64,000 bases of DNA, from the NCBI GenBank assembly GCA_026874595.1, contig CM049314.1, forward strand, positions 33,364,229-33,428,228, written 5' to 3'. The notes under the pieces are model-generated. The model had not been told where the DNA came from, did not search any database, and saw only the letters and a list, made by a program, of their open reading frames with translations. The stretch is from Sipunculus nudus. Taxonomy: Eukaryota; Annelida; Sipuncula; Golfingiida; Sipunculidae. Positions 21,191 through 64,000 of this stretch are shown in pieces (the stretch's first letter is position 1; every line of letters starts with the position of its first letter). A program made the translations under genes and the position numbers.

Positions 21191-21971
21191 CTCCAGTGTC
21201 AACTTACCAACAGGTAAAGCATGACAGTTAGAGAACTATAAATTAGTTATATATTATGCTACCAGGTGCCAGCACCAGTCCTTGATGTCACCATACAGCC
21301 AGAGTAAATCTTATAAGCTTTACCAACTGTGCCAGTCTAATAATACTGGATGACCCTGAGGGGAGGTGTTTGCCATAGTTTCAAACTGTAGATACATGAG
21401 CCACAGGTAAAAACATACATCATTTGATGTGAGAGATATATTGAGATATACATGTACCATAGATATGCACCCGGAAGGTGGCTTAATGAATAATGTATGT
21501 CTTAACAGTGTCATATCTAACCATTATCAGTTAACATTCCATGTTTTATCATGCATGATACAGTCCAGACACATGTACTATGCATGCTTCACACAAAACA
21601 AAGTTTGATTTGAATACCACCACAGTAGATATGCAAAGTGACCATTTTGCCACTGATATATTGCATCTGCTATACCAAACAGTCTTATGTTGCAGCCGCA
21701 TGCAACCTGAAACTGGTGTAATGCAGTGTAAATTTAGACACAGACCTCATAATAACCATAGTCAGGTGTCAGATTTATCATGTGTAAATATTATCATGTT
21801 TTCCTTAATAGTAAATCTTGTTTCATTTATCTGTAAAAATGTATTTATTCGATATCAAATATTTTTGTATAGTTTGCTGCATTTTCACCTATTTGAGAAG
21901 ATAGCATGCATAATTCATGTTTTCTGGCCCCAAAACCCAGCATGACTTTATCATGGTATAAAGATGATTTT

Positions 21972-22073
21972 GTTATAAAGATTAGTTCGTTATAAAGATT
22001 AGTTTGTTATAAAGATTAGTTTGTTATAAAGATTAGTTTGTTATAAAGATTTGTTTGTTATAAAGATTAGTTT
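21972..22073. repeat. 17-bp tandem repeat, six copies
   Basis: GTTATAAAGATTAGTTT repeated six times with two substitutions. Confidence 0.95.
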
Positions 22074-24388: not shown

Positions 24389-25224
24389 TGATGGTTGACA
24401 AGCAAGAGGACTGTCAAGTCGATCCCGCATGTACGACCAGCGTAATTTTTGCATTTAAAATGAGGAGTTTTGTTCCCGGTCATGATTGGCTTGAGATGAA
24501 AGTACGTATATATTTGAATATACAGAGGGGTGGGGGAATAATAACAGACGATGATGCATTCGCAGCCATTTCATATTTGGTTGGTTAATTTCACCCAATC
24601 ATAAAAATTTTAAGTTGGGACTATGCACCTGGTTATAAAGAGAGACCCACTCGGCTATAGAATGAAATACCCTCCATATATATGATATAAAGGGCGAGAT
24701 GTTTTTTGTACATGTATGTATGTGTATGCATATCCGCGCCAGCATTTACACTTTTAACGCCATTGTAACACTTTCTTATAATTAATTGTATAATTATGTT
24801 GTCTTTATTCCGGACCACACCTGCTACGGGGCTTGTTCACTTTAATATACACCGGTACTTCATTAATACGCAAGTCACATTTATACGCACGTCAGATACA
24901 CATAAAAAAAGAGACTGTTTACAATATATAGATATATGGCTGGGTTTTTATTGGAGGTTTTGTTTGCTTTGCCATATTTATTTGGGGAACTTGAAATGTT
25001 CATTGTTCGTTGTAACCAAAGCACTGTCACTGCATTTTAAGATGTGAACAGATGGGAAAATAAAATTGTGGTAAAGAAAGTTGTGCCATTTATATTTTAT
25101 TTGTTTGCTGAACACAACCAGACAACATCCAGTTTATGAGAACAAATTTAAGTGAGAGTTCACCAGAGTATTTTTCGTCCATTTCTGATAAATTTGACCT
25201 ATCGGTGATTTGCAATAATTGCAA

Positions 25225-40424: not shown

Positions 40425-40610
40425 GTCAGTCCCCGAAGTTTGTTATAAGTAATTTTGGGGTTCTACTGTATTTGCTCCTTGCAAATTGTACCCCCCCCCC
40501 CTACTCAAATTCATGATCTGCTCCATATTGTATCAATATATGTAGTGTACTGTATTAATTGTATAAGTAAGGTAAATTTGTCACTGTATACTATACATAT
40601 TCTTCTGCAG

Positions 40611-41650
40611 GATCACAGAAGAGACACTGGGAGCTTTCCGGAGGGTCAACAGCTTTATGAAGGTCTACATGAAAAGCAACGTGTATTGCGCATGTGGACT
40701 GGATCCTTTCTGTGTGACCCTTCAAAGTTTTTACTGGTGGATTTCTCTCACTGCTTTGTATGTGAAGCTGGAAAACTTGAGGACTGTGTTGATGTACAGA
40801 AAAATTATCGAAAATAAAAATAAAAATGAATAAAAAAATTGCATACATTTAAATAAAAAACCTCTATATATATACTGTATTATATAGGTTTGATAAGTAT
40901 ATATTATATATACACGTAAAGGAAAATGGAATTGTTTATATATTAATGTTTATACTTGTCTGTATATATGCAAAAATAGGGGAGAAAAGTCATGTAATTG
41001 AGTCATTGCAACAGATATTTTAGTGTTTACCTGAATGTGAAAAATGTATTACATAATTAATGAATAAATAATAATAAATTTTATAAGATTTTAAATAATA
41101 GTATACATTTTGGATGAATCTGTTCAGGATATAGATAAATATATGTATCTCGTGGTATCATTATATAATTAGCACTTACAATTACACACATTGGATACGC
41201 ATGCGCATAAGTATGCATTATATAAGAACTGGTCAGCTACTGAAAGTTTGTTAGTATCTTACAGCTGATGTAAAAACCATACTATATAGAGAAAAATTTA
41301 AACCTAATGTCCTTTTATGTAATATATGTGATGACTTGTACATGTAATCAGTGTTTTTGTAGTTAATAGAAAAAAAGTCTACCGTTTGCCAGAGATGTAT
41401 CTTTATCTGACGGGTGTTTCACACGACCATAGCATTTACTATAATTTTTGACCGATTAAATAAAGCTGCTGTTTTATGTTTGAAGCATAATTAAAACTCT
41501 AAAAGGGTGACACATCGGCAGATTCTGTGTTTGTTGAATCACATATATTTGTGTATTTACTGTCATGTCACTTTGTTTTCATTACTATAATAATTTCTCA
41601 GATGGTTTTATTCACACGCAATTGGTTCCAGGTTATTTGCTTCAATAAAG
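40611..41650 (+). other. SELENOT: SELENOT 3'-UTR exon with SECIS and poly(A) signals
   Basis: Begins GATCACAGAAGAGACAC after a strong acceptor. SECIS at 40640-40723. AATAAA hexamers at 41459-41464 and 41644-41649 are candidate poly(A) signals; earlier A-rich ones near 40828 and 41070 are possible. The end is uncertain. Confidence 0.75.
40640..40723 (+). ncRNA. SELENOT: SECIS element (type II fold)
   Basis: Helix I pairs GGAGGGTCA (40640-40648) and CAG (40650-40652) with CTG (40710-40712) and TGACCCTTC (40715-40723). An internal loop CTTT/CCTTT leads to the quartet ATGA (40657-40660) opposite GGAT (40701-40704). Helix II is ten continuous pairs including two G-U: GGTCTACATG (40662-40671) with CATGTGGACT (40691-40700). 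The apical region is AAAA (40672-40675) then a mini-stem GCAA/TTGC (40676-40679, 40686-40689), which makes it type II. The distance from ATGA to the apical A's is 11 nt, as expected for SBP2-binding SECIS elements. Confidence 0.93.
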
Positions 41651-42340
41651 TTGATCTTACCGTACCAGATGTTTTTTGTAAGTCATAACGTTTTGATACC
41701 GAAATGTAAGAGAATTTTAACAAAAATATTTTTACTTGTCAGATTTTGGGCCTAATTTTGGCGTAACCGATTTGCAGCCATGCTGATCTGGATAAATCGG
41801 TTCTTTCTTAAAGGTACATGAACATTTACATTAATATGTATTTATCTAACGCGATTTTTTTTCATTTAGTGGAATACAAAGGATACCCAGCAAAACTTCC
41901 TCGGACTTCCCTTCGCTCATTCGTCTCTTTTATATATTGTTATGGTTCTGCTTGTTAGTAAAGATTTCAGTTCATCCTTATCAGATCGTAGGGTTTCTCC
42001 CACGGTTATAATGCAACAACACCAACACTTTTAGATTATCAAAATGGTCGAAAGATCTGTCCAAATGTAGCATGGTCATTATTACTATTATACCAAAAGT
42101 GATTATATTGCAAGACCATGGGTTGTGGGCTACTAAGCTTATCATGCAGGATACTGGAGGTCATTACCCTGATGGGGTAGTTATGGCTGCACTGCATTCG
42201 GACCTGGATTGATAGCAAGTGAGATTTACAAGCACTGATTACTGGCTTGTTTTGAGTGTGGAAACAGATTCTCAGGTAAAAAAAAAAGGTGATATATTAG
42301 AATTTATTCTTAAAATTGTATAAAGGAGGCCTAGACGTCA
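41651..42340. other. Intergenic, no feature seen
   Basis: AT-rich sequence downstream of SELENOT without recognisable coding or repeat structure. Confidence 0.6.
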
Positions 42341-43115
42341 GGGCTTTTTTACATGTAATAAAGGAAAAACAAGGGTACCGCAAAGCGGAGCTTCCCCTCG
42401 CACGGGGCGAACTTGGAATAGGGTATTACACAGTGTGAAAATGAGGAGGACAGCTTTCTGGCTTGACCTTTGCTCCTGTGAACTCAAACTAAATAGGTTC
42501 TTAAACCATGGGTAGGTGAGCCATATGAGCAAGATGACAGGTGTTGTTCAAACCGTTTTAGCCTATAATGGGTCCACAAGCTTTTTCGCGAAGTGGGCCT
42601 TGTGGCCGTGACCGTTGACCCCGTGACCTCAAAATCGATAGGGGTCTTCATCAATGGGTGGGTGAGCCATTTGTGCAAGTTGAAAGGTTTTGGTGAAATT
42701 GTTTGGCTTAAAATGGGTCCACAAGCTTTTTTTAAGAAGTGATCCCTGTTGCCATGACCTTTGACCATATGACCTTAAAATCTATGGGTTTCCTCAACCA
42801 TCGGTCGGTGAGCCATTTGTGCAAGATAGAAGTTTTTTTTTGTAAAACGCTATGGCATTAAATGGGTCTACAAGAATTTTCAAGAAGTTGGTCCTGAAGC
42901 TGTGACCTTTGACCCCGTGACCTCGAAATTTATAGGGTTCTTCATCTATGGGTGGGTGAGCCATGCGTTCAAGGTGAAAGGTTTTGGTCAAACGGTTTGG
43001 CTTGGAATCAATCCATAAGCAAATTCTGGTAGGAAAGACGGACGGACAGACGGACGCACCAACAGAGACGTTACTAGATCCCTTGCGTAACTTCGTTACG
43101 AGGGGATAATAAATA
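42341..43115. mobile_element. Interspersed repeat with ~145-bp internal tandem units
   Basis: Three to four units carry GGTGAGCCATTTGTGCAAG, AATGGGTCCACAAGC and TTTGACCCCGTGACCT (starts near 42493, 42640, 42785, 42930). Left edge GGTACCGCAAAGCGGAGC; right edge GACGGACGGACAGACGGACG and CCCTTGCGTAACTTCGTTAC. ORFs inside are by-products. Confidence 0.7.
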
Positions 43116-43539
43116 CAGCCACGTATCCTGTAGGTACAAAGTCTTAGTGACTACTGTTAATAAAGGTGCCCATTCACCTACCTTTTGAAAAAGAATTTAT
43201 GTGAATTCTGGCTTCCTCTGTATATATATTAATTGAATCAACGGTATTTGGTTGTGAAAACTTCTTATAACGCCTTCGTTAAGGATGTATGAATTTGTTC
43301 ATCAACATATTATTTGCAAACACGGCAATGTTGACAAACGGGAGGAACATGTAACCTAAGGGGGTAGGTTGCGCATAGTATGCGGAGGTAGAAAGGTCAC
43401 TTATTGCAAAACCCCATTTGCAAAGCTGTGGCTTTGACTTGCTGCCAGATGCCCATGTTGAATTTGTGTTTGAATATTTTTGCGGGCCCCCACATGTTAT
43501 AAAGACGTTGATATAAACAAAACAAACAGCCCGAATGTG

Positions 43540-44900
43540 GTGATATCCACGTTTTCTGGCCTATTTAGCGAACCTGTGAGCTTATGCGATGGCGCAGCGT
43601 TGTCCGTCAGCCGTCCACCGTCGTCCGTATGTTAACCCATGCTATCTCAGAAACCGTCAGCGCTAGCAGCTCCAAATTGCATGTATGAATCAGTTACATG
43701 TCAAAAGTTATTGGATTGAGCTTATTTTTGGGTATCTGCATTATCTATGATTTTATAGGGAAAAAGCTTAAAAATTTTTTAAAAACTTCTCCGAAACTGT
43801 CCAGCCAAATTGTCCAATATTTCACAGAAATAATCCCAGATACAATCTCTCTCATGTTTGTTCGAATGGCTTCAGTTCTGTGATTTTTTGCCGCGTTACA
43901 GGAAGTTGTCATCTGTCCAAAAAAGACATACTTAAATTTAAATCTCAGAAACAGCTGGAGCTATCATCACCACATTTTATGCAAACGTTGATCACATGAG
44001 TCATATCTGAAATCGAGGTAAATAAATATAAAAAAGGTATTTATTGTACATGGATTGTACAAATAGTTATTATAACTAATCGCGGCACTCTCCATGGCAC
44101 CGGTGTTGGCGTTCGGTAGTCTGCAGGGGTGGTTGAAACCTGAGTACCCGGAGAAAACCACTGGTCTTGGACGGGCAACTACAACCCACTCTCATAGCCA
44201 CGCCGGTGATCGAACCCGGGTAGCCAGCGGAGAAAGCCAAGCGTTTTACCACTCAGCTGTTCAGGAGTTATTGGTGGCGCCATTTGCGTATGCACGGGGG
44301 TCATCATTGCCTGTATCATACTGAGGGCTCAAAAAAACTTCTCCTCTGAAACCATATGGCCAAATTGTTTAATATCGCACAGAAATGATAGTGCTTTCTG
44401 AAATTTGTTCAAATTGTCTTTGTTCAGTAAATTTTGGCTGAGTTTATGGGAAGCTGAATTTATTCATATGCCATAGCAGCCCATTTCAGCTTTGTGGCTA
44501 CAAAGATCTTCTTCTCAAAAACCACTGTACCAAATTCTTTAAACCTCACACATTAATTATTCTCCGAATCATAATTTTAATTTTTTGGTTCAAATGGTTT
44601 TGGCTCAGTGATATTTATAGCTGAGTTACGGGAAGCTGAACTAAGCCAGTTTTCTGTATCTTCCTATATGAGTTATCAGCCTGCAAAATGTTTTTTCGAC
44701 TGATGCCACTGAAGCCAATTTGTTTAACATCATACAAGAATAATCCCCACAATAATATCTTATAATAATTGTCCTAAAATGGTTCCACATGAATGATTTT
44801 TGGCTGAATTATGGAGATTGAATTTAGTCCTTTTACCATATATGTTAGCTGTGTGAAGCAGTTACATCTAGCCTGGCACCAGTTTATCAGCATCTATTAC
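43540..44900. mobile_element. Diverged GTCCGTC-type interspersed repeat
   Basis: ACCTGTGAGCTTATGCGATG followed by CGTCGTCCGT-rich sequence, then repeated blocks on the theme 'AACCATATGGCCAAATTGTTTAAT...CACAGAAAT'. This left end is widespread in mollusc genomes. A SINE interrupts it at 44085-44290. Confidence 0.55.
44085..44290 (-). repeat. tRNA-derived SINE
   Basis: On the minus strand a good Pol III promoter: box A ACAGCTGAGTGGT (44248-44260) and box B GGTTCGATCACC (44205-44216), inside CCCGGGTTCGATCACCGGCG. The tail has GTTTTCTCCGGGTACTCAGG. It is not a functional tRNA (no cloverleaf around box A). Confidence 0.8.
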
Positions 44901-45284
44901 ATCATGCAACTAGACATTTAGATTTCAGGTTATCAATGGTTAATATTGACAAAAATGTTTTTTAAAAGCTTTTAAAAATTTTAGATTTATGATTTAAATT
45001 GTTCATCATACCAGGCAATGTTAACAACCACAGTTATAGACCCTTCTGTGGCTATATAAGACGGCTGTACATGGATTATAAATAATTGGTATCCATACTC
45101 AACTCAAATTCAAGAATTTGCCATCATTGAGATGTAACTGTATTATAATTAAGCATTCAGTATGCATCTGTAATAATTTTTTATATATTCCTAATTTCTT
45201 GTTTTTTTTATAAAAAGTCAGCTTAAAACATTTTGTATTGTGAAAATCTATTTCAAAGTTATTTCAAGTAAGGGCCACGTTTGT

Positions 45285-46374
45285 GTACAGATGCCAGCAC
45301 TTGGATTACCATTGGCAGATCGCCAGGATTTGCAAGTGCCTTGATGTTGTGCCACTGGCCAAGATTATGTCAGCTCTATAAATAGCTTTGGCACAGTGCC
45401 AGGATCGGAAGAGGCCTATGTGCTGCAGTCTGACTACTATTAACAGCTTGATGTGGTGTTTTTATGGAAAGTTCATTGTATTATGTTGAACAAGTCAATG
45501 CAAGTCTGTTTAATTTAAATTTATTTCAAGTAGGGACCCTATATTTGAAATTTCTGAAATTTGGCATGTTCATCCATCCTAGAACGTTTTCTCTTAAGCC
45601 AGACAGGGGGTGCCACCTACCTTTGTTTTTGTAAAATAAACCAATGCCTTTTTCTCAGGAGTGATTTGCAGTAAATTGTGCATATCCATAACCCTTGGCC
45701 TCCTCTCTCTTGTACTCAAGACTTGTAGCACCATCTGCAATCGTTTTCCCATAGCGTCCGTCCGTACATGTATGTGCTTTGGGTGAAAATTGCTCATATC
45801 TCAGGAGTGGGTCAAGGTATTGGTCTGACATTTGGCATGATCATCCATCTTAGAAAGTTTCTTTTAAACAAGACAAGTGGCGCCACTGACATTTCCTTTT
45901 TGGTTGAATAAGTTAATGCCTGTTTCTCAGGAGTGATTTGCAGTATTGGCCTGAAATTGTGCATATTCATAGATCTGGGACTTCTCCATCTTGTATTCAA
46001 GACTGGAGGCACTACCTGCAATCGTTTTCCTGTGGCGTCCATCCGTACATGTGCTTTGGGTTAAAATTGCTCATGTCTCAGGAGTGGGTCAAGGTATTTG
46101 TCTGAATATCGGCATGTTCATCAATCTTTAAAAGTTTTCCCGTAAACCAGACAGATCGCACCACTTACCTTTCCATTTTTGTTGAATAAATCAATGCCCT
46201 TTTTCAGGAGTGATTTGCAGTATTGGCCTCAGTTGGTGCAACCTACAATCATGTTTACGTGGCAGACATCCATTTCACTCTATTTCCCTTTACAAATCAA
46301 TCCATGCCTCACTTCACATGTACTACTCTGATTTCGGCGGATAAAAGTAGTCGCTTTCAACTACCTGTATCTAG
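45285..46374 (+). mobile_element. Second Helitron-like element, 5' end unclear
   Basis: Repeated ~280-bp units with GTGCTTTGGGTNAAAATTGC, CTCATATCTCAGGAGTG and GTGGCGCCACT. The right end has GGCGGATA (46336-46343), a TAGTCG-CTTT-CAACTA hairpin and CTAG|T (46371-46374), matching the element ending at 14753. Confidence 0.55.
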
Positions 46375-47280
46375 TTGTTTCATGCATCTGTGCACAAACC
46401 GAAGAGTGGCTTGAAGCATGAAATTGTTTATATGCATGCATCTTAAATGGCTTTATCATACACAAGACAGGTGGTGCCACTTACATTCATTTTTTTTGTT
46501 GTGTGCACCTATGCCAGTATTTCAGCAGTTACCTTTGTGTAATGGGTGCATGCACTTTGGTTCAAAATGTTCAGTGTTTGCATTGTACTTATACATGTCA
46601 CACATGTACTTGATAAGTAACGGCCCAGCATGAAAGCATTATACCTGATGTATATCCCATTGCACAGGTTCGCATTAGGCCTTGGTTTCATAAAAGCTCC
46701 ATGGGATTACCTTTAGTTTATAAAGGTCGGATAGGTTATTTGGCCCCTTTAAATAACAGGTAACTAGAAGAAGCACCCCGAGAGCACCGACCTCGGATGT
46801 CACGAAGGATTGTGACTGAATTAATTATGCCTAAAAAAGTTACGTATTCAAATATGTTGAATTTGCACGTTTAACAATATATAGAGTAATTTGAAAGAGA
46901 ATTGACGCCTCTCCTTAGCATGAACGTCAGATATGATTTTATGCATCCCCGCTAGATGTCAATATCGAAATTGACTGCTCTTTGTCCACAACATGAATCT
47001 TCATCTACTATTGTAGGCCTAACGTTTTTAAATGTCTCCTAAAACTTGTAAAGATCATAATTCTGTAAAACAGAAATGGAATGTGTTGGTTATTACTGTA
47101 ACAAGAGTTTTCACAGATGAGATAAAAACGCATGAGTGAGGATTTCTATGTGGATAAGTTCTTTAAGATAGATGGGTGCTAGGTGATGTTGGCACTTAAA
47201 AGTGAGCAGTAACATTTTAAACCCATGAGATCACTTTCAGCAGTCGCGGATTCGGGAGTACGTTTGTGCAGGAGCCAGAT

Positions 47281-47388
47281 TACTCTTATTAAATAATAGG
47301 TCGAATTTTGCTCCCTCCACGGCCCCTCTTTGTCGATGAAGCGGGAACGCAGAGGGAGCATAATTCGACCTGTTATTCAATAAGAGTA
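47281..47388. mobile_element. 108-bp foldback MITE
   Basis: Arms 47281-47317 and 47352-47388 (37 nt each) are near-perfect inverted repeats starting TACTCTTATT and centred on a 34-nt loop. CCAGAT directly precedes the left arm (47275-47280) and occurs one base after the right arm (47390-47395), a likely target duplication. Confidence 0.8.
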
Positions 47389-47395
47389 CCCAGAT

Positions 47396-48420
47396 AGTAG
47401 TACCTAATACTTGAGGAGTACTCAGAATGAGTTTATAAAAAACATAGATAATTTTCGGGGAGGAAGAGTTTGTGTTTTTTTTTTATAAAAAAACCTTGTA
47501 TATGATATTTGATGCTAAGTGTTCAAAAGCCTGAATGAATGAATATCGGCAGGTTCTATTGTTTCTTCAGTTATCCGTAATACTAATAAATTAATGACTT
47601 ATAATATTTTATATAACGGATAAAAAAATCACAGTTTATTATAAATTTTATTAAGATTGTTAAAATGAATTTGTGTAGGCCTAATAAACTTAATAAAATA
47701 TGTGGATGTTATTCAATATATTTACAATTCTATTGACTATATTTCATGTTATTTTATTTATATTATTATATTTCTTTACCTTCATTATAATAAGTAACCA
47801 TGACGAGTCCTATTACCTGGTTTCAGAGTAAACTGCTGTATAATAGTCCCAATTAATGTTTACCAACTTCTATGTCAATCATTTTCTATATTTAAAATTC
47901 CATTTAATACAGTTATTATAACGGTAACTTGGAACATTATAATTCTGTAATTATGATTATTTTTACTTCAAACATTTGTTTAAATATATATTTTTAACAA
48001 ATGATATACTATATTTACAAAATAATATTACTAGGAACTACGTATATAGGCTTATAGCCAAACAAATGAAACATTTCCAAATGGTAGGTCTACATGTTTA
48101 TAAGCAAGGTATTAATAATGCAAATATACATAAGCCATAGAGATAAGGACATGGAGAGATATTTATATTTTGTGTTAAAATAATGAAAAATGAACACATT
48201 TTACGTTTTTCGGTGTAGTTGGTATAAGTTAGTAAGAATGCCTGTTTGACTGGGTCGGGAATTCGGTAGGTCTATGGACCTATATATAAAATCTACCTTG
48301 TACCTCTCTCAATGCAAGCTATCCAAAACGGCACCTTCCTAAGAGCAAAGTGCATCTCACGTGTTTATTTCTCAGTTAACAAACGTCACGTTTATATTCT
48401 GGGCTTTTTAGTACACCTGT
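47396..48420. other. AT-rich intergenic, no feature seen
   Basis: No coding region, repeat or RNA structure recognised. Confidence 0.6.
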
Positions 48421-48456
48421 AGATCTGCGCGTAGCACAGTTGATGCGGAACAAACA

Positions 48457-48473
48457 GCGCATGCGCATTGACT
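48457..48473 (+). promoter_or_regulatory. NRF1-like core followed by TTGACT
   Basis: GCGCATGCGCATTGACT. The palindromic GCGCATGCGC is the NRF1 core; the 17-nt composite recurs at 62520-62536 with one change. Located 38 bp before a possible first exon. Confidence 0.5.
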
Positions 48474-48494
48474 GTCAATAATCGTCTGCGGTGA

Positions 48495-48546
48495 ATGCCC
48501 GCCATTTATTTCGTACACTGTGGTAATACGTTCTCAGGCCAAGGCT
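48495..48546 (+). CDS. Possible first coding exon of an unidentified gene
   Basis: ATG followed by 17 codons (MPAIYFVHCGNTFSGQG) and a very strong donor gct|gtaagtatt, phase 1. HCGN resembles the first knuckle of a zinc ribbon (CxxC would need completion in the next exon). The NRF1-like motif upstream supports promoter character. No second exon could be identified. Confidence 0.35.
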
Positions 48547-49100
48547 GTAAGTATTCCATTTTTGCGTTTTATGTGTGTTTTCTTCCCAATTATCTAATGC
48601 CAAAGGTCTTGATATCTCCTGTTGTCCCTTTGGACATATAACACGATGAACAAACACATGCCCTGTTTGATTTAGTCACGTGACCTAGGACAGGATAATT
48701 AATGTCATGCAGCAATACATACAGCTGTTGTGCACATGTATTGTGACATTTGTATACAGATATTGAAGGAGGTATGTGTGCCAGAACTGTTGAAAGCTGA
48801 TCGGATAGGGAGAGGATTTTACTCGAAAAACACTTAAACAAACAAAATAAAAAACAACAAACAAACAAACAAAAACACTTTATATGATGAATAATACAGA
48901 ACGATCATAATAAGATATAATTTGATGGCCACCTGTCTGATGCCTTTCATTACCCCGAAAATAATTTGAAATCGTGGAAGGAAAATTCTTGTATCACAGA
49001 ATGTGGTCGTATCAACAGGGTTATCATGTTTGACATAGCAAATATTTGACAAATAAATAAAAAGAATAAGGTATGATCATGACAGCGGAGGGTTTTATAT
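48547..49100. other. No feature seen
   Basis: AT-rich sequence with an A/AAC-rich patch at 48836-48877; nothing else recognised. Confidence 0.55.
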
Positions 49101-49101
49101 A

Positions 49102-50165
49102 CAGTAGAACGCCTGTATTACGGTCACCATCGGGACTGGATGAAAGTGGCCGTAATACAGGAGTGGCCGTAATACAGGACTTGACCAGGATAGGGGGGTT
49201 AAAATGTAACACGAAACCAAGTTCAAATCTTTATTACAATCAACAAAATAAACGTATATACAGGGTATTAGTATAATTACTGTTATCAATAAAAAAAATA
49301 AAATATTTACAATCACGTCAACCCTATTTATAACAGTCACCAACAATATTTACGAATACAGTGTATGTCGTAAAATTACAAACATATTGTATATCCATGA
49401 TATTTGTACAAATGTTGAGAAGCTCTTTGTATCCATAAAGCATACTAATAGCACGGAAGTATCAGCATAAATATGTGAACATTCACAGAATACACTCTTT
49501 ACATCTGGTTAAAGAAAGCAGTTATGAAAGACTGTTTGTTACACACTTTCGAGTTCACAATTTCATCTTGTTAGGCAGATTCAAAATTCTTGGTGGCCAT
49601 AATGGTCAAAGTGATTGGGACAGAGTATGCGTAACATTTCTTACATGTAACATTGTTTATTTTGCATTCATAATTATTCATGTATGAGTAAATTGTGCGA
49701 TGTTTGCCGCACTGTTTTCGTTTGATGTACGTGTTCACGAGGACATTGAAGAAAGTTTAAAGATCAACAGTTTGCCCAAAATTTTTCTGATGACATAATC
49801 ATCGGGACCCGCTGGTTGTCGTTCGTTAATTAAATTACAAACACCCTGATTAAGATCCGGCTCGCTAGACTGATTCCCAAACACACGCAGGTGGTAACAC
49901 ATGCCTTACTATTGTGCATACTAACGACGCTGGCTACGTGTCAAACAACTCTGTCACGGTCGAGTGGTTACCTGCCCCTGACCATAATTGAGGCGTTTCC
50001 CGGCCTGCGGGACCGAGAGACCTGGCCGTAATGCGGAATAGAGGAGTGACCGTAATTGACAACAAAATGATTATGAAATATACGGTCGAAAATTCGGGAC
50101 CGGAAAATCTGACCATTATAGACGTATTGACCGTTATTGAGGCGCGGCCGTTAGCAGGCGTTCTA

Positions 50166-50168
<3 letters not shown>
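49102..50168. mobile_element. 1,067-bp Tc1/pogo-like non-autonomous transposon with perfect 14-bp TIRs
   Basis: CAGTAGAACGCCTG (49102-49115) and CAGGCGTTCTACTG (50155-50168) are exact inverted repeats, each flanked by TA, the expected target duplication. Subterminal GGCCGTAATACAGG and GACCGTAATTGA motifs are repeated at both ends. No ORF above 100 codons, so it needs a transposase in trans. Confidence 0.88.

Positions 50169-50225
<57 letters not shown>
50169..50225. repeat. TA microsatellite abutting the transposon
   Basis: Alternating TA run starting at the TA target site. Confidence 0.95.
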
Positions 50226-50227
<2 letters not shown>

Positions 50228-52238
50228 TTATATATATTCTATATATAGGAATGGTCTTCAAGTTGGATTTCAAGTAGCACCAATGGCTGAAATTCAGGTA
50301 ATCTTTGTGTAACACCGTGAACTTAGTAAAAGCGGCCATGTTTATTGCAAATGTGCCATCACATAATAGACTGTATAATGCATATATTGCACGGTGGATT
50401 CTGCCAAGTTAAATAACTAAGGGTGCCAGTCACTGTAACCTGCACATCACCTTGAGATGATTAACAAATAATATATGTAACATCAGAAGGCCGCATTTGA
50501 CAGAAAGTTATAGTTTTGCTTAACCTAAGATCAGTTGCCATGGCACCGCATCTGCTCATCAGCCATCCGTTCTCCTGACATGTTGACAGAATCTCAGCAC
50601 CTCCCTGACCTGTCAAGTTTCCATTTAATCATACTGTAACCCGAGACCCTGATTTTTTTTTACATATGCGTATATATAATTACTTGTTTATAATATATCG
50701 AAACGAGGTCAACTGTAACACGTACGCGGATACTTCGACAGGGGCGGATTTTGAAGGGGAATAGGGTGTAAAAATCTTGGAAACAGAAATATATACTTAT
50801 ATATTCTTATATATTCTTATTTCTCTTAAGTAATCTTATAGGACTGGGACATAAATGATTTTGAATACAATTGTGAGTTTGTTGGTCCCATATACAGCGG
50901 TCATATATACCATGTGAGTCGTGTGGTCAAAACTTTCCAATTCAGTCATTTTTATGGAGGTGACTTAAAGACAATGTTACTGGAATATTTATGTTTTAAA
51001 TTATTTTAAGTTATATTTTTTAGTAAAATTTTAAGGATATTTCTGTCCTAACGATTTTTGACATTGAACTTTCACTTGAACACGCATTGCTCTGAAGATT
51101 CAAAATACCTGTAAACTATAATATAAACAAATCTAAATCTAAAAACAATACTAAAATGCAAATAAATAAAAAAATAATTTGGAATACCAATAGTCTGGCT
51201 TTCCATTAACTATGTTCGGCGTTCGTTTAAGATGGAAGGCCTGTAATGATGTCCTTTGCTTAACATTTTACCTCTGGAAAAATTAGCCGATGCATCACGG
51301 TACGGAAACGTTTAAATAAATGTGATGTAATAATGTAAAAGGCTTATATTTGTCCATTGCTTATCAATCATTGCCAGGCCATTTTTAAAATAAAACATGC
51401 TAATGCTGATGTGTGTGCATGTGCATATATATATATACTTGTGTACCATACATATACCCATCCAGTTTGTTTAAAAGTCTCCGGCATCCTCTCTCGAACG
51501 GCTTCATGTTTATTTGTAGGGACACGAGCCTTGCGTGCTGTACACCTGAACACCACTACTAATCGTGCTGAGGTAGTAAAAGACAAACGTCGGTGTTGAC
51601 TGATACAAGTTTAATTCTCAGCATAAATCTTCACAATACAACTCCTTCCGGGACGAACATTTGGGCTTTAGGAGTGGAGTTCACCAATAACAGGTAAGAA
51701 TGCGTCCCATCCTTACAGCCAGACACATCCACATGTATATTCATCGATGTCACTTCCTCCCATTATTGTCAACAAGAAGCTGCAATTGTGGAGCTCTAAT
51801 TATTACATCATTTTCTTTCGGTTAGACAAATGAATGTATAAAGACTGCATAAACAGACTGCGTATGCAGAACTTAAACAAATTAAGTTTTTATTTGTATC
51901 GCTTTTTCCTCATATGCCATATTCAATCAAGTACGTCACATTAGTGAGAAATGTAATTTGTTAAAAATAAAACAGTACTGATTTCTCATTTCCCAGCATA
52001 GTCAGCTTTTTCGGGAGGTACGCCGGATCAGCTATGTTATACGCCACAAAGCAGACATAGAAATGAAGCCGCATAAGGGCATATACACATACATGTTATT
52101 ATGTCTTCAAGTGGCGTTCTCCTGTGCGTTCTTCTTTATGTGAAGTACCAATTTCTTCGTCATATTCAAGAGCAATCAATGAGCGTGTACGGTTTGCTGT
52201 GCAAGAGTACAATGTTCATTAGTTATGTGAATCGGATA
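50226..52238. other. Spacer before the minisatellite, no gene supported
   Basis: No recognisable domain in any frame. The ATG at 52101 opens a frame into the array, with a mildly hydrophobic start (MSSSGVLLCVLLYVKYQF), but nothing upstream looks like a promoter. Confidence 0.5.
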
Positions 52239-55200
52239 GTTCCCATGTGGCATATCTCCAGGTACAATGTGGCATATCTTCAGGTACCATGTGGCATACC
52301 TTCAGGTACCATGTGGTATATCTTCAGGTACCATGTGGCATACCTTCAGGTTCCATGTGGCATATCTTCAGGTACCATGTGGCATACCTTCAGGTACCAT
52401 GTGGCATACCTTCAGGTACCATGTGGCATACCTTCAGGTACCATGTGGCATACCTTCAGGTACCATGTGGCATACCTTCAGGTACCTTGTGGCATACCTT
52501 CAGGTACCATGTGGCATACCTTCAGGTACCATGTGGCATACCTTCAGGTACCATGTGGCATACCTTCAGGTTCCATGTGGCATATCTCCAGGTACCATGT
52601 GGCATACCTTCAGGTACCTTGTGGCATACCTTCAGGTTCCATGTGGCATATCTCCAGGTACCATGTGGCATACCTTCAGGTTCCATGTGGCATATCTCCA
52701 GGTACCATGTGGCATACCTTCAGGTACCATGTGGCATACCTTCAGGTTCCATGTGGCATATCTCCAGGTACCATGTGGCATACCTTCAGGTTCCATGTGG
52801 CATATCTCCAGGTACCATGTGGCATACCTTCAGGTACCATGTGGCATACCTTCAGGTTCCATGTGGCATATCTCCAGGTACCATGTGGCATACCTTCAGG
52901 TACCTTGTGGCATACCTTCAGGTTCCATGTGGCATACCTTCAGGTACCATGTGGCATACCTTCAGGTACCTTGTGGCATACCTTCAGGTTCCATGTGGCA
53001 TACCTTCAGGTTCCATGTGGCATACCTTCAGGTACCATGTGGCATATCTCCAGGTTCCATGTGGCATACCTTCAGGTACCATGTGGTATATCTTCAGGTA
53101 CCATGTGGCATACCTTCAGGTTCCATGTGGCATATCTTCAGGTACCATGTGGCATACCTTCAGGTACCATGTGGCATATCTTCAGGTACCATGTGGCATA
53201 CCTTCAGGTTCCATGTGGCATATCTTCAGGTACCATGTGGCATACCTTCAGGTACCATGTGGCATACCTTCAGGTTCCATGTGGCATACCTTCAGGTACC
53301 ATGTGGCATACCTTCAGGTACCATGTGGCATACCTTCAGGTTCCATGTGGCATACCTTCAGGTACCATGTGGCACACCTTCAGGTACCATGTGGCATATC
53401 TCCAGGTTCCATGTGGCATACCTTCAGGTACCATGTGGTATATCTTCAGGTACCATGTGGCATACCTTCAGGTTCCATGTGGCATATCTTCAGGTACCAT
53501 GTGGCATACCTTCAGGTACCATGTGGCATACCTTCAGGTTCCATGTGGCATACCTTCAGGTACCATGTGGCATACCTTCAGGTACCATGTGGCATACCTT
53601 CAGGTACCATGTGGCATACCTTCAGGTACCTTGTGGCATACCTTCAGGTTCCATGTGGTATATCTTCAGGTACCATGTGGCATACCTTCAGGTACCATGT
53701 GGCATACCTTCAGGTTCCATGTGGCATATCTCCAGGTACCATGTGGCATACCTTCAGGTACCATGTGGCATACCTCCAGGTTCCATGTGGCATATCTCCA
53801 GGTACCATGTGGCATACCTTCAGGTACCATGTGGCATACCTTCAGGTACCTTGTGGCATACCTTCAGGTACCATGTGGTATATCTTCAGGTTCCATGTGG
53901 CATATCTTCAGGTACCATGTGGCATACCTTCAGGTACCATGTGGCATACCTTCAGGTACCATGTGGGATACCTTCAGGTACCATGTGGCATACCTTCAGG
54001 TACCATGTGGCATACCTTCAGGTACCTTGTGGCATACCTTCAGGTTCCATGTGGTATATCTTCAGGTACCATGTGGCATACCTTCAGGTACCATGTGGCA
54101 TACCTTCAGGTTCCATGTGGCATATCTCCAGGTACCATGTGGCATACCTTCAGGTACCATGTGGCATACCTTCAGGTACCTTGTGGCATACCTTCAGGTT
54201 CCATGTGGCATATCTTCAGGTACCTTGTGGCATACCTTCAGGTTCCATGTGGCATATCTTCAGGTACCATGTGGCATACCTTCAGGTACCATGTGGCATA
54301 CCTTCAGGTACCATGTGGCATACCTTCAGGTACCATGTGGCATACCTTCAGGTACCATGTGGCATACCTTCAGGTACCATGTGGCATACCTTCAGGTACC
54401 ATGTGGCATACCTTCAGGTACCTTGTGGCATACCTTCAGGTTCCATGTGGCATATCTTCAGGTACCTTGTGGCATACCTTCAGGTTCCATGTGGTATATC
54501 TTCAGGTTCCATGTGGCATACCTTCAGGTACCATGTGGCATACCTTCAGGTACCATGTGGCATACCTTCAGGTACCATGTGGCATACCTTCAGGTACCAT
54601 GTGGCATACCTTCAGGTTCCATGTGGCATATCTTCAGGTACCATGTGGCATACCTTCAGGTACCATGTGGCATATCTTCAGGTACCTTGTGGCATACCTT
54701 CAGGTTCCATGTGGCATATCTTCAGGTACCTTGTGGCATACCTTCAGGTTCCATGTGGCATATCTCCAGGTACCATGTGGCATACCTTCAGGTTCCATGT
54801 GGCATACCTTCAGGTACCATGTGGCATACCTTCAGGTACCATGTGGCATACCTTCAGGTTCCATGTGGCATATCTCCAGGTACCATGTGGCATACCTTCA
54901 GGAACCATGTGGCATACCTTCAGGTACCATGTGGCATACCTTCAGGTTCCATGTGGTATATCTTCAGGTACCATGTGGCATACCTTCAGGGACCATGTGG
55001 CATACCTTCAGGTACCATGTGGCATACCTTCAGGTACCATGTGGCATACCTTCAGGTTCCATGTGGCATATCTTCAGGTACCATGTGGCATACCTTCAGG
55101 TACCATGTGGCATATCTTCAGGTACCTTGTGGCATACCTTCAGGTTCCATGTGGCATATCTTCAGGTACCTTGTGGCATACCTTCAGGTTCCATGTGGCA

Positions 55201-56808
55201 TACCTTCAGGTACCATGTGGCATACCTTCAGGTTCCATGTGGCATATCTTCAGGTTCCATGTGGTATATCTTCAGGTACCATGTGGCATACCTTCAGGTA
55301 CCATGTGGCATACCTTCAGGTACCATGTGGCATACCTTCAGGTACCATGTGGCATACCTTCAGGTACCATGTGGCATACCTTCAGGTACCATGTGGCATA
55401 CCTTCAGGTTCCATGTGGCATATCTTCAGGTACCATGTGGCATACCTTCAGGTACCATGTGGCATACCTTCAGGTACCTTGTGGCATACCTTCAGGTACC
55501 ATGTGGCATACCTTCAGGTTCCATGTGGCATACCTTCAGGTTCCATGTGGCATATCTTCAGGTTCCATGTGGCATACCTTCAGGTTCCATGTGGCATATC
55601 TTCAGGTACCATGTGGTATACCTTCAGGTACCATGTGGCATACCTTCAGGTACCATGTGGCATACCTTCAGGTACCATGTGGCATACCTTCAGGTTCCAT
55701 GTGGCATACCTTCAGGTACCATGTGGCATACCTTCAGGTACCATGTGGCATACCTTCAGGTTCCATGTGGTATATCTCCAGGTACCATGTGGCATATCTT
55801 CAGGTTCCATGTGGCATACCTTCAGGTACCATGTGGTATACCTTCAGGTTCCATGTGGTATACCTTCAGGTTCCATGTGGCATATCTTCAGGTACCATGT
55901 GGCATACCTTCAGGTACCATGTGGTATATCTTCAGGTACCATGTGGCATATCTTCAGGTACCATGTGGCATACCTTCAGGTACCATGTGGTATACCTTCA
56001 GGTTCCATGTGGCATATCTTCAGGTACCATGTGGCATACCTTCAGGTACCATGTGGTATATCTTCAGGTACCATGTGGCATACCTTCAGGTACCATGTGG
56101 TATACCTTCAGGTACCATGTGGCATATCTTCAGGTACCATGTGGCATACCTTCAGGTACCATGTGGTATACCTTCAGGTTCCATGTGGCATATCTTCAGG
56201 TACCATGTGGTATATCTTCAGGTACCATGTGGCATATCTTCAGGTACCATGTGGCATACCTTCAGGTACCATGTGGTATACCTTCAGGTTCCATGTGGTA
56301 TATCTTCAGGTACCATGTGGTATATCTTCAGGTACCATGTGGCATACCTTCAGGTACCATGTGGCATACCTTCAGGTACCATGTGGCATATCTTCAGGTA
56401 CCATGTGGCATACCTTCAGGTACCATGTGGTATACCTTCAGGTTCCATGTGGCATATCTTCAGGTACCATGTGGCATACCTTCAGGTACCATGTGGCATA
56501 CCTTCAGGTACCATGTGGTATATCTTCAGGTACCATGTGGTATATCTTCAGGTACCATGTGGCACACCTTCAGGTTCCATGTGGCATATCTTCAGGTACC
56601 TTGTGGCATACTTTCAGGTACCATGTGGCATACCTTCAGGTACCCTGTGGCATACCTTCAGGTACCATGTGGCATGTGGCATACCTCCAGGTACCATGTG
56701 GCATACCTCCAGGTACCATGTGGCATACCTCCAGGTACCATGTGGCATATCTTCAGGTACCATGTGGCATACCTTCATGTACCATGTGGCATATATTCAG
56801 GTACGCCA
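52239..56808 (+). repeat. Minisatellite: ~207 copies of a 22-bp unit, open in all three + frames
   Basis: A reference unit is 52391-52412; each contains GGTACC, CATGTGG and ACCTTCAG. Because 22 is 1 mod 3, every + frame reads the same cyclic 22-residue repeat (PCGIPSG, MWHTFRYH, VAYLQ), and a stop-free unit is open in all frames. Frames run 52101-56852, 52247-56980 and 52267-56811. The minus strand has TGA once per three units in every frame. Variation is confined to a few sites (GTA/GTT, CCA/CCT, GGCATA/GGTATA, ACCTT/ATCTT/ATCTCC), with variant blocks repeated at 352 and 396 bp. One 29-bp unit (7-bp ATGTGGC duplication) occurs near 56660. A protein product is not supported. Confidence 0.97.
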
Positions 56809-58660
56809 TGACTGCAAGACATGCCATCCTTTTAAAGAAATTGCCCAAATGAAGAAATTTTGGTCACAGAAACAAATTTATAATTCTACATACTCATTTA
56901 TTTTTTTTTCTATTTTCTTTACGAGTCGAGATAAAACACTGAATTTTACGAGCTTGCCTAGAAAAAAATATATAATATAAAAATGTTCTATAATTCTTGA
57001 AATGGCGTAAATTATCAACACAACATTTACAGTTCATTATCCATACTTTTCGTAATTCTTTTAAAGAAACTGTACCAAGGCACAAATTAGAACAATAAAA
57101 AGGACCCGGTCTTCATTTACAAACAGTTTATATTTGGTCCAAATATTAACCGATCAGTAGATACGGCGAATCCGTAGAACAATAAGATTTTGGATTGCAT
57201 TGGTCGCCCTTTTCCGACGTAGACGAAAAATCAATAGGAGGTACATGATCATGGTAACATAGTCTACCAAACATATAGAGAAAAAAGCATCTTAAACTGA
57301 GGTGTGTTACATTATGCATTCCAATGTTTTTTTAATACTTTGAGTAAATAGGGTTGAATTAGTGCCAATGAAATAATTTCCTACACTCATATACAAGATC
57401 TAGTGAGTCGCATTGTAATCTTGATGATCAAAAGTATTGTCCTTCACAGCAGCTGCAACATATCGCTTAATTGGTCATATCAACATCATCTTTGTTTGTT
57501 TAAGACGATATGCAAGAAAAGTGAGCTAGTATGTACAATCAGAATCATATATATGATGTTGCCTGTAAAGTATAGGAAACAAAGGCCGTCATAACACAGT
57601 GAGAAATCAGGACGTAGTAGGAACTGCTTGTTCTCCTTTTTTTTAATAATCAACACGGTTTGATAAATGAAACTGCGTAGGAGCCGACAAGTTCAGTTTA
57701 TAAACATACTCATATTACTCATAGTCATACGAACGATATATTATAATATATGCTAATTTTGTACAAGAGTAAGCCAATATTGGGACTTCCAAGTTCTGCG
57801 TGATAATATAAATTTTGTTTTCTAAAACATAACATTATCGCACAATATTTTTATCATAAAATAATTGCAACCTGAGTAATTTAACCTCTATCAGATACAG
57901 CATTTGTAACATTATATATATACCTATACATTTCCTGACTTCATACGTGGAAAATAAGCTGGCATTCATTATAAGAACCATGTGTTCCTTTGCCTAAAGC
58001 AAACACAAAAGAAACCACTGTCCGTTAAAACACAATGAGAATACCAGGCTGCTTCTGATTATGATTTATAGTTAGTTTGGTTATCTATTTAGGAAAAGTA
58101 AGAGGAAGCGCCTGAAAGAACCCACAAGCAGACTTCAGTAACATACCCATATCATTCATTCGAACATGTGTTAATAATATATGCTATTTGTATGTGTTGT
58201 ATAATGCAATTGCCAGTCGGACGTACTTTATGGTTTATTATGATTCTTAAGATCATTACTTCGTTTGCTAGTACTGCTGGCATCATCATCAGCATCATCA
58301 TCATCGTATTCATCACCATCATCTGATGGGTCTAACTAGCCCCCAACCAAGAGCACCTGTGTTTTAACTTCCTCCAGATACCAAATAAAACGAAAATATT
58401 TGGAAAACCAGTAAAAAGAAACCTTGGACTTTTTCAACTATGTACTTTTATATATGCATACTTTGTAAAGATTTTGGAGAGCTACAGAATGTACATATGT
58501 TCCTATGCTTAAAACATGTAGGCCTACATTCAATAGGCACCATTGATGAATCATTAGATATTTGTATACATACAGTTCATTACATGTACATGCCACCAAT
58601 TTTTTCAAGCTGGTACACATTTTATACAAGACAAAAGAAAATGACTATTGAAGGATCCCC
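56809..58660. other. No gene or repeat recognised
   Basis: AT-rich. A short (ATC)n-type patch at 58281-58320 is the only structure noted. Confidence 0.55.
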
Positions 58661-60360
58661 ACCATACAATTAATTTAATTTTCACAGCATGTACAAATAA
58701 GGATTTAATCTGTTAAAATCTGAAATTTGAAAATAAAAGCCTGATAATTAGGCAACTTATTGATTTTTTTGGAGGCTCTTGTTGTATTCCCTTGTCAAGC
58801 AGTCCACTTTGGTCACTGTTGGTCATTCAGTGCAGCTCTCTATGCTCCTCAGGTTGTTGGCATAATGTTAGATGTCCCCAAGATCTCCTACCAAGCCGAA
58901 AACTGGGTCTTTGCGACTTCGTTCCTTTGAGAAATTAAGGAAAAACCTCATTTTTTAAAATTAAAAACCTATTTTCACACTTCAGGAATGCCTAATATCG
59001 AAACCACTCATCTGTTTTTCCTCATATTTACCATAAATATTCCTCTATATAGTTCCTATGTACATGCCAGAAATTAGGTCTGTATTTTATAATTTTAAAA
59101 AATTATGGGCTCAAACATAATTCATTTTGTAAAAAATCAGGAAAGATATTTGATCACTTAACACAAACAATGTTAAAGCTAAGGACTTTTTTCCAGTAAT
59201 ATAACTTTAATTTATCAAAATTAAATTGTATACCTAAAATTAGATCAAAATCTTTTATTTTTTTAAAAATATGAGCAAAAACAAAAATTTGTTCCTTAAA
59301 TTTTGCCCAACTTTGGCCATGGCACGTTTTTTTTCCTGTAAGTACTGTGGCTTTAATTTTCACAGCATGTACACATAAGGATTTAATCTGTAATTTGAAA
59401 ATAAAAGCTGCAAAATTAGGCTTGGTTTTTTTGGAGGCTCTTGTTGTATTCCCTTACACTGTCAAGTAGTCCACTTTGGTCACTGTAGATCATTCAGTGC
59501 AGCTCTCTATGCTCCCCAGGCTGTTTGCATAATGTTATGTAATCCCATCACTAATGCAAGCCCTCTCTCCACTGGGTTGAGCTTGATCAGGCTGTCTGCA
59601 GTTAATACCACATGGAGCCTTTTTCTCTCCCCCCCCCCCCCCCCGTTCTGTTGACAGACCTGTACTATGAACTAGATGAATTTTATAATTAAAATTTTTT
59701 TCAGCAACGAGCAGTGACGACAGAGACCCCTCCCTCACCCACCCCTTCAATACACATGACTAATAAACAAGATGAATCTTATAATTTAAATGTTAAATAA
59801 ATTCTTTTTGATGAGACTTGGACAATTTTGATTTTTTAAAGAAAAAAAAAATGTTCAGGAATTTAATCCTAATATTCAAATGTGATAAATTATTAGGATC
59901 TACTGTAAGTGCTAATTAACAAGATTTAAGAAGAAATAAATACTTTCTAGCATTTCATTCACATCTCTTAAAGTTGGCGGGGCCTAGGTGTGAATAATAC
60001 TGTTAACTTAGTATTAAAATTAGGAATATTGGTCAAACTTTGTGGGATTAATCCTTAACTCATATGGCCATATATTTAACTTTTGAAAACTTAATTACCT
60101 TCACACATAATTTGTTTATGAAATGTTACTTTTATATAACACTTACCGTAGGCCCATTTTTTTCCCTTGGTGCATTACTAAATGGTTTAGCTCATATCCA
60201 TTATTCTTTAATTTACAGAGTTTCATTTTAGCAGGGCCATTTTCTCATAGCTTTTCAAATGATAATATACATGAAAAACGAAAAGAAATAAAAATATTTT
60301 GCAGTTACTAATATTTTCCTAAATTTAGCTGAGCGATGTGACCCATGGGTCCCTTGTTTT
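58661..60360. mobile_element. Interspersed repeat family A copy 3, with internal duplication
   Basis: 58661-58800 and 59340-59540 repeat each other (TTTTCACAGCATGTAC, AATAAAAGC, GGAGGCTCTTGTTGTATTCC). 58860-59330 matches 9650-10120 closely (TTAGATGTCCCCAAGATC, GGGTCTTTGCGACTTCGTTC). The right end AGCTGAGCGATGTGACCCAT then GGGTCCCTTGTT matches copies 1 and 2. Contains a C16 run (59629-59644). Confidence 0.7.
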
Positions 60361-62318
60361 TTCATTCCATTGAAAATAATCAGTGAAAATAGTAAAACTG
60401 ACTGAAAACGATAATGCAACTTCTGAGAATAAACTACTAAGTGTCAGAAAAAAGGGTCTTTGCTTGTCCTGTACAATAAATTGACGTTCATGATGCTATC
60501 TTTCAGTCTAGTTGAATTTTTATGTACAGGTGTGTGGGCCAATATTACTTCAAGAAAAGACATACGACTATGTAAAAACTACATTCAATAGTGAATTTAT
60601 GGAAGTTAAATTCTTTCATATAGTTACATTAATCTCATTTGTGTTTAGACCGGCTTGTGTGTTTCCTTATCTGTCTGTTCATTTAAAATTTTGTATCTTC
60701 GTACCTTATTCTGCCAGCAGTGATTACGCCACTAAATTTATAAATCCTCTTAAGACTTATTGGCTTTAGAAACACCGGTATTACCGGTTGTGACGTCAGA
60801 TTACCAAGCTATTACCTTGAGCCAAGACCTAAGTATTCAGGCAAATTGTTTCCTTGTGAAAGGTGAAGGAGTCTGTTAAGCTTTTTTACCGGCCTTCTTA
60901 TCAACATGAATCACCGTTTAACTCATATCGCCGTATGGAAGAGACGTCTTTCTCCATTTTCGTCTGATCAAATATACGCCATTTCTTAGAACAATATCCC
61001 CTGTCAGTTGGTATGTCTGCTTGTAAATACAATGCAGGAAATGTCCGTCATGAAATGTTTAGCTTGCGTTCTTGATACTCTTCTTTGCTGGGGTTTAGTT
61101 TGCAACTCAAATCAACCTGACAAATCGCTTACTTTTTTTGTTGTTTGTGGAAATACTTTCTTCATTTGTCTATTAATTAGAGAGAGATCTCAGCTCTTTT
61201 CTCAGTGCATGAAAGGATGATTCATTATATAATTGTGACGTGGATCCGGTTCCGTGGTATTTTATTTTGAACTAGAAATTTGTACTCAGACAGCGCAGTC
61301 CTAGGCCATTGAGATGGCATTGTCAGACATGCAGCAATTTTCCATTAGAATATAGTTTTTTTACCAGATGTTGATCCGGACAACCCAAAACTTTAATAAA
61401 TTGTTCCTTAGAGCTGAGGTATCCTGAATGTTGCTAACAGACAAATAGACAAACCAACTCCCGGGAAATAAAAAAAACTTAACATCCGCTTGGTGGAGGG
61501 AATTATCTAATAACTAAACTTTGCTCGAAATAAGTTTAGGAGAAATAGCACTATACTTTTATCACTGACCATTGAATTCATATTTGATACTATGCCATGT
61601 GCGGAGACCATAAATACATTAATTACTGCGGAGATATAAATCAATCTAAGCCAACAAAAAAAATCAAAGCGCATATTAACATCTCAATGCAGATGGAGAT
61701 ATCTCTTTAATGCTGCAATACGCCCACGACCGCGTGAGTCAAAATAAAAAGGAAGACAAGTAGCGGAAACCATGGTAAACACATGCTGAGCACGTTAACT
61801 GAATCTCTTACTGAGTGGCCCAGCAGCTGTTATAACGTAACTAATAATATATAGAGGGCAAACGTGCAGAGGAGGCTACAATTCCTAGAAATATTGCTGA
61901 GCTTTTATCAATTAGGGTGCATGTTTAGTAATGACCACGTAATAAGAACTGACGTATGTTTAATGCCAACACATCTGTTTACCCCAGATAATGGGTATAT
62001 GTCAGTATTTATGTGCCATATTTACAATATTAATCGACAACATTTACAATATTTATTTTCTTTACACATCCGGTTCAAGAAATTGGCTACAGAATGTTTT
62101 GTAGAGATAAAGTATTAGTTTTCAGTTTATAGATAGACTAAGCTGGGAACGTCTATAAGCCTATTTCTTAGTTAAATGCTCCTTAAAGAATTGAAGTTTG
62201 TGCATAGCTCTTTAAGCTATGTTTACTCCTGAAGGTTAGATTTCAGGTTGTACGGCAGCATTATTATTGATTATTTAGTGGTTATAATTTCTATACACAC
62301 TAGCCTTTTCTTATACGT
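60361..62318. other. No gene or repeat recognised
   Basis: Mixed-composition intergenic sequence; short ORFs show no domain signatures. Confidence 0.5.
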
Positions 62319-62322
62319 ATAT

Positions 62323-62375
<53 letters not shown>

Positions 62376-62380
62376 AACAC
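62319..62380. repeat. TA microsatellite
   Basis: Alternating TA run with a short ACAC tail. Confidence 0.95.
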
Positions 62381-62492
62381 GTATGCGTTATAAACATTTT
62401 CTTATACGGTCGGTGCCAGACTGTGCCTGGCATCGAGAACACAGGGCGCCAACTAATAAAATGCCAAAAAGCTCAAACTGACAGAGCTGTCC

Positions 62493-62536
62493 CCGGAAGA
62501 GAAACTGACAGCAAGAGCTGCGCATGCGCGTTGACT
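62493..62536 (+). promoter_or_regulatory. Promoter-like region: ETS site and perfect NRF1 site
   Basis: CCGGAAG (62493-62499) is an ETS/GABP core. TGCGCATGCGCG (62519-62530) is a perfect NRF1 consensus, followed by TTGACT. The region is locally GC- and CpG-rich, unlike its surroundings. ETS plus NRF1 is typical of TATA-less housekeeping promoters. Confidence 0.6.
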
Positions 62537-62704
62537 AAAGACGTCCCAGTTTTACCGACAGCGCCAACCGCTGCCCGGAGCGCTCTTTTGATTGTGATGT
62601 TTTTCAATGGTTCGCTGGTGTCCTTCACCGGGTTACCTTGGCAGTGTCGGAGTAGCTAGCGAGAGGAGCGGGAGGAATTGTTGTGCTTTACTGAAGGACT
62701 AACA

Positions 62705-62771
62705 ATGGAAGGGATTTATATCAGCCTGCGAGAGTCGCAAACCAATAGTTGCAACAGGGCTAACTGCGAAG
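62705..62771 (+). CDS. Possible first coding exon of an unidentified gene
   Basis: ATG in good context (aacaATGG), then 22 codons (MEGIYISLRESQTNSCNR, then ANCE) and donor aag|gtaaat, phase 1. It sits 175-200 bp downstream of the NRF1/ETS region in CpG-rich sequence. I do not recognise the peptide; downstream exons are not in the window or not recognisable. Confidence 0.45.
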
Positions 62772-64000
62772 GTAAATAAATAATGACGCATACCTAAGAT
62801 GTTTTTTAGTATTTTTTAATAAATATCTCTATACGTTAATATACTGATCATATAACTCTGTTTCCTGTGGGCAATCATTTCTAATATTTGTTTTAACATA
62901 CCGGTAATGTTGGCATTAATTAACAGTCTCAGCTATATTACCAGGACGAATACTACTATTAAATTTGTTTTTCAATGAAAATATTGGGAAAAATGTTTAT
63001 ATCTGATTTAGCCATTGCGAACCACACCACGGAACAATACATGCAGGGCTCACTGCATGCTGTCTAAAAAAATGATCGGGCTTAAATGCCTATCTTTAAA
63101 TGTTTATACGTCCATTGAAAGCCGCTTCATCGAGGCGTTTTAAATATTAAAGGGACCCATTAGGAGATCTGAATTCCACCAACTTAAGATAAATGAATCT
63201 TTTTGTAAGCATATACCAGAAAACACCGGTCCCACCGCAAACAGACATGTTTATAACATATGGGGTGCAACCAAAATAATCCAAACACATTCACTATCTG
63301 GTTGCAAGAGTTTTCCAACTACTGACCCTTCAACATCCGCATATATACATTCAACCAATACGTTACATATGTTCTTCTGTTTCTCAACATTTATAGATGT
63401 ACCGTGTTTACTAACAGCTCCGACATCATGTTTATTTATTGCCATGCGACGTTGAATTATATGTAAACGTTAGTCACACCTGTGTTGGTAAAAATAGTCT
63501 CACTACGGAGCGACATCCTAGTAGAGAGGTGGAGGTTATTTTCCTCACGTGGAAACAGTATTTCTGTCCCTTCTCCAATCTCACATAACTTAATATTGGT
63601 TCTTACTCAAACAAAAGAAGGTTGGATGCCCAGATTGGGAACACACTGTAGAGAATCATAGATGTGAGCTATTGACAGAATATTAAATGTTCAAGACTGT
63701 ATAGTCAAAGCTTTATCCCTGCATCTGATTCCAATTATATTTAAACAAAGTAAATGCATGTGTAAGCTATAACAGAAATATTTATGATCATCTCAAATAT
63801 CCAAGTTAAAGTATTTACAATAGAGATATTTTTATTGGACTCGGAATCGGACTTGGACTCGAACTCGGTGGACTTGGAGTCTAAAGAACTCTGATTCGGA
63901 CTTGGGTTCAGGTGGCCTGGACTCTATATTCGACTAGACTACAGTACTGCTTGTTACCATAAATAAACAAAGTATTACCCTGACTCATGAAATGTTAACA
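62772..64000. other. Right edge: presumed intron, with GGACTTGGACTCG hexamer block
   Basis: 63838-63960 has degenerate GACTCG/GACTTG hexamers ending ACTGCTTGTTACCAT, resembling 18815-18840 and the window's left edge. Nothing else recognised between 62772 and 63837. Confidence 0.55.

Follow-up and report, generated by a model that had tools for sequence, protein, structure and literature searches.

Long open frames without a coding signal in a 22-bp minisatellite of Sipunculus nudus

The DNA analyzed here, referred to as the window, is a stretch of 64,000 nucleotides from Sipunculus nudus (GenBank assembly GCA_026874595.1, contig CM049314.1, positions 33,364,229 to 33,428,228 of the forward strand). 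It contains a tandem array of about 4.6 kb (Table 1), for which TRF reports a period of 22, 207.0 copies, 92% matches and 0% indels. Decomposition into units yielded 207 units of 26 types, spaced by 22 bp in 205 of 206 cases and by 29 bp in one, which bears out a preliminary description of about 207 near-identical units with almost no indels. At the one irregular spacing, CATGTGG stands twice back to back, as it does at no second place in the window, and we read this as a 7-bp slip duplication. Compared with the consensus, the array has 190 differences of 15 apparent types. One of these, C1>G, is a pseudo-substitution, an artefact of the 29-bp junction that is counted among the 190, leaving 14 real substitution types. 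Eleven of the 22 unit positions never vary across the 207 units. At 0.485, the GC content of the array exceeds that of its flanks (0.351 and 0.337 over 5 kb), and the array is free of CpG. Single-stranded DNA folding of three consensus units and of their complement is unremarkable (z-scores of -1.1 and -1.3).

Table 1. Coordinates of the array and of the features that touch or adjoin it (positions in the window)
Feature	Position	Strand	Basis
Minisatellite array, 207 units, consensus CCATGTGGCATACCTTCAGGTA	52243..56804	+	TRF and unit decomposition
Single irregular spacing (29 bp), CATGTGG doubled at 56666	56643..56693	+	Unit decomposition
Longest frame between stops (1591 aa), including the upstream ATG (52101); not regarded as a gene	52077..56852	+	ORF listing
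Old dispersed repeat, starting some 90 bp beyond the 3' end of the array	about 56896..57144		Own-genome matches

In the animal's own genome (1,426,538,692 bases or 1.43 Gb, in 153 contigs), all 17 matches of a 401-bp array probe fell inside this array. The array is therefore probably confined to a single locus, as judged by this one probe and a search that skips simple repeats and very common words. The old dispersed repeat to its right, found in at least 39 other places at 68–77% identity among the matches listed (40 of 132 candidates scored), might suggest instead that the array belongs to the interior of a dispersed transposable element, or that it is one of the sites of a genome-wide satellite. 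The outcome of the probe search argues against this. So do the surroundings of related loci: the 22-bp unit is absent from all seven of the 39 listed copies of the right-hand repeat that were inspected together with some 1.5 kb of sequence to either side, and from all three loci that match the left flank, the best candidates having 6–9 mismatches of 22. The left flank itself (843 bp) matches, in the genome, itself and those three fragments of 38–111 bases, which are 71–92% identical. A dispersed origin is thus very unlikely.

The unit had no matches in viral contigs, and a 30-base pattern spanning two units had none in a prokaryote genome collection, as expected of a eukaryotic repeat. Four words of 13–14 bases from the unit did not occur in the literature searched. 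Scans of the window found neither an Rfam family, at the gathering threshold, nor a tRNA.

Several other repeats were noted in the window. A LINE-like retrotransposon lies in interrupted pieces at 30152–33357 on the minus strand, with a reverse transcriptase at 30152–31699 (Pfam RVT_1, 5.9e-35) and, up to 33357, weaker, below-cut-off matches to an endonuclease and a PHD finger; no relative of the reverse transcriptase was confirmed in viral contigs. Two arrays with units of 278 bp (13628–14643) and 277 bp (45553–46229) may belong to one dispersed repeat family, as pieces of 39–86 bases from or adjoining the second match the first at 74–87%. The stretches at 58665–59537 and 9651–10251 are copies of a dispersed repeat, about 83–86% identical, and a 17-bp period with differing units recurs in five short tandem arrays (2632–2673, 13104–13189, 21957–22073, 24861–24894 and 49145–49179).

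The array might act as a cis-regulatory or chromatin element, with units that putatively bind a protein many times over. It contains 189 copies of the word CATGTG, which we take to be E-box-like, and 204 copies of CAGGTA or CAGGTT, presumably splice-donor-like, and the invariance of half of the unit positions is consistent with such a role. However, recent homogenisation yields invariance as well. Moreover, there are 99 stop-to-stop ORFs of at least 55 aa nearby (68 in 40000–52000 and 31 in 57000–64000), and none of the 10 that were scanned has a Pfam match, although split exons could escape such a scan. A regulatory role seems most improbable.

The internal pattern of the array speaks for growth by duplication. 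The longest exact block repeat comprises 9 units at lag 20, whereas 100 shuffles gave a mean longest block of 5.75 and a maximum of 8, and the autocorrelation of unit types is raised at lags 20, 12 and 3 (z of 3.4, 3.0 and 2.8, the best of 79 lags). The variant C9T is crowded at the 3' end, where 16 of its 25 copies lie within the last 69 units. Rare variants, with one or two occurrences, are found near the edges: six of ten fall in the outer 11 units of either side (P 2e-4, for a width chosen post hoc), and widths of 5, 8 and 15 units give P values of 0.010, 0.005 and 0.001. The nine-unit block, the edge-biased rare variants and the 7-bp duplication, each modest alone, fit the marks expected of slippage and unequal exchange. 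We infer that a 22-bp word was duplicated and then expanded to 207 copies via replication slippage and unequal exchange; the distribution of the common variants (A3T, C9T, C13T, T16C and A22T) suggests that block duplication spread them.

There are no stop triplets on the plus strand of the array and 188 on the minus strand, and the stop-to-stop frames through it measure 1591, 1585 and 1523 aa. The preliminary description had noted both the stop-free plus frames and three overlapping frames of about 1,500 codons that encode one 22-residue repeat, and both observations hold. All three frames give the same repeat, shifted in phase, because the reading phase returns after every three units (66 bp, 22 codons). 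The openness itself follows from two properties of the unit: one of its strands is free of TAA, TAG and TGA, and three does not divide its length. It had rightly been cautioned that 22 equals 1 mod 3, so that a single open unit is enough to open all frames, and that open frames by themselves do not indicate coding. The openness of the founding unit is unremarkable as well, with a chance probability of 0.27–0.28. When random 22-mers of 48% GC are made tandem, 28% are open in every plus frame and 46% on at least one strand; the figures are 27% and 41% for shuffles of the array unit, and 21% and 37% for 22-mers starting at window positions 1–52000.

These three open frames, without a stop in 207 units, could nevertheless be taken for most of a gene that starts near 52101 and encodes a secreted repeat protein of about 1,580 residues, whose 22-residue repeat is kept in any frame. 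An ATG upstream of the array, to which attention had been drawn together with its hydrophobic start, is indeed present at 52101. This combination of ATG and hydrophobic stretch is equalled at only 43 of 1538 sampled plus-strand positions (2.8%). It is mildly unusual, yet one among several features that might have been picked.

A translated array should show selection in its variants. Each variant meets all three codon positions along a single frame, because 22 leaves a remainder of 1 when divided by three, and under selection in the translated frame the common variants should favor those units in which their phase makes them synonymous. We found no such preference. The phase chi-square P values of the five common variants were 0.17, 0.96, 0.76, 0.47 and 0.19. 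Among the 190 differences, 61, 60 and 67 are synonymous in the three frames, compared with means of 62.4, 62.8 and 62.7 in 3000 shuffles, so that a lean toward synonymous change is absent in all three frames. The earlier impression that the variation is restricted to synonymous-looking positions was mistaken, as 129, 130 and 123 of the 190 differences are non-synonymous.

The preliminary description had also proposed to weigh the number of stop-creating variants against neutral drift. The consensus allows 66 single changes. Ten of them introduce a stop, whereas none of the 14 real substitution types does (P 0.10–0.12, depending on the share of transitions). C1>G would create a stop in an ordinary unit context but creates none at its 29-bp junction. 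We simulated neutral arrays by block duplication, deletion and mutation from an open consensus, with one transition/transversion setting, and compared the array with the 8602 of 67224 sampled states that matched it in having 11–17 substitution types and 0.5–1.4 differences per unit. Among these matched states, of which several stem from one run, so that they are not all independent, 9.3% were free of stops, with a range of 6.8% to 13.6% between parameter sets with at least 44 matched states. A cruder neutral model, also started from an open consensus and likewise with one transition/transversion setting, gave zero stops in 7.5% of 400 runs, at a diversity below that observed (0.20 versus 0.92 differences per unit). 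The lack of stops thus lies within neutral expectation, on its low side (7–12% by estimate): stops are mildly few, but not significantly so (P about 0.07–0.11).

At the protein level, a Pfam scan that covered 2058 bases from the beginning of each frame gave whole-protein scores above the curated cut-offs for YoaL (37.3 and 30.3; cut-off 27), FhuF (37.8 and 25.8; 25.2), RFX5_N (34.2; 25) and HTH_psq (21.7; 20.4), with a best E of 2.9e-9. In contrast, no single stretch of these frames passes, the best fragments spanning 12–37 residues. We infer that the whole-protein scores add up a single weak chance fragment that recurs many times, and joint scoring by four unrelated families is to be expected of such sums. 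A PDB search with 220 repeat residues in one frame gave nothing up to E 1, and Pfam recognises nothing in the 54 aa that directly precede the array. For 220 residues, AlphaFold2 without an alignment predicts a regular structure rich in beta-strands (mean pLDDT 72.9, pTM 0.61), with mean pLDDT values of 63–67 for the other four models. One study reports that AlphaFold2, when given random sequence repeated perfectly, returns confident but unrealistic beta-solenoids (PMC11795689).

The open frames, the hydrophobic start, the summed Pfam scores and the predicted fold are thus what a secreted repeat protein has in its favor. Against it stand the missing synonymous bias in every frame, a lack of stops that neutrality produces at P of about 0.1, the empty PDB search, the failure of any lone Pfam stretch, and an upstream segment that resembles no Pfam family. 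On balance, such a gene would be a great surprise. We hold a translated, frameshift-proof secreted protein, in which any internal indel would return the same 22-residue repeat, to be equally implausible; if it existed, copy number would be free to change without breaking the product. The hint of coding that lingered in the preliminary description finds no support in the lack of synonymous bias, the stop absence (P about 0.07–0.11) and the want of a protein relative for any single stretch. As far as its sequence can tell, the array is, with little doubt, a non-coding minisatellite of a large eukaryotic genome, probably at a single locus and in all likelihood without a sequence-specific function.

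Minisatellites are variable-number tandem repeats with units of roughly 10–100 bp. With 207 tandem units of 22 bp, the array falls into the class of repeats whose units of about 10–100 bp extend over hundreds to thousands of bp, and it resembles other minisatellites in its unit length, its kilobase size, its near-identical units with few shared variants, its block duplications and the position of its rare variants near the edges; we found no difference from them in the one assembly at hand. A further comparison is offered by the “mirage” minisatellites of amphioxus. The report on these describes tandem units, many with AG/GT splice signals, whose homogenisation is weaker at the boundaries than in the interior, with Adh3 units of 10–72 bp; they duplicate known intron-exon boundaries, and two haplotypes of BflGb6 have 3 or 6 units of 150–160 bp (PMC3087553). 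Our array is like the mirages in its tandem units with splice-signal-like words, in a homogenisation that weakens toward the edges and in a unit length within the Adh3 range, and unlike them in having 207 units and no gene boundary that we could find.

In itself, the array matters little. It is of use as a clean case in which very long open frames with a periodic peptide, but no coding signal, arise from a repeat unit whose length three does not divide. Gene prediction, whole-protein Pfam scores and interpretations based on AlphaFold2 can all be misled by such frames. Ohno (PNAS, 1987) is said to have pointed out, for genes built from oligomeric repeats, that a unit not divisible by three yields the same periodic peptide in every frame, reportedly as a proposal on coding sequences. 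Our array departs from that proposal in that we found no coding signal, and agrees with it in that its 22-bp unit gives one periodic peptide whichever frame is read.
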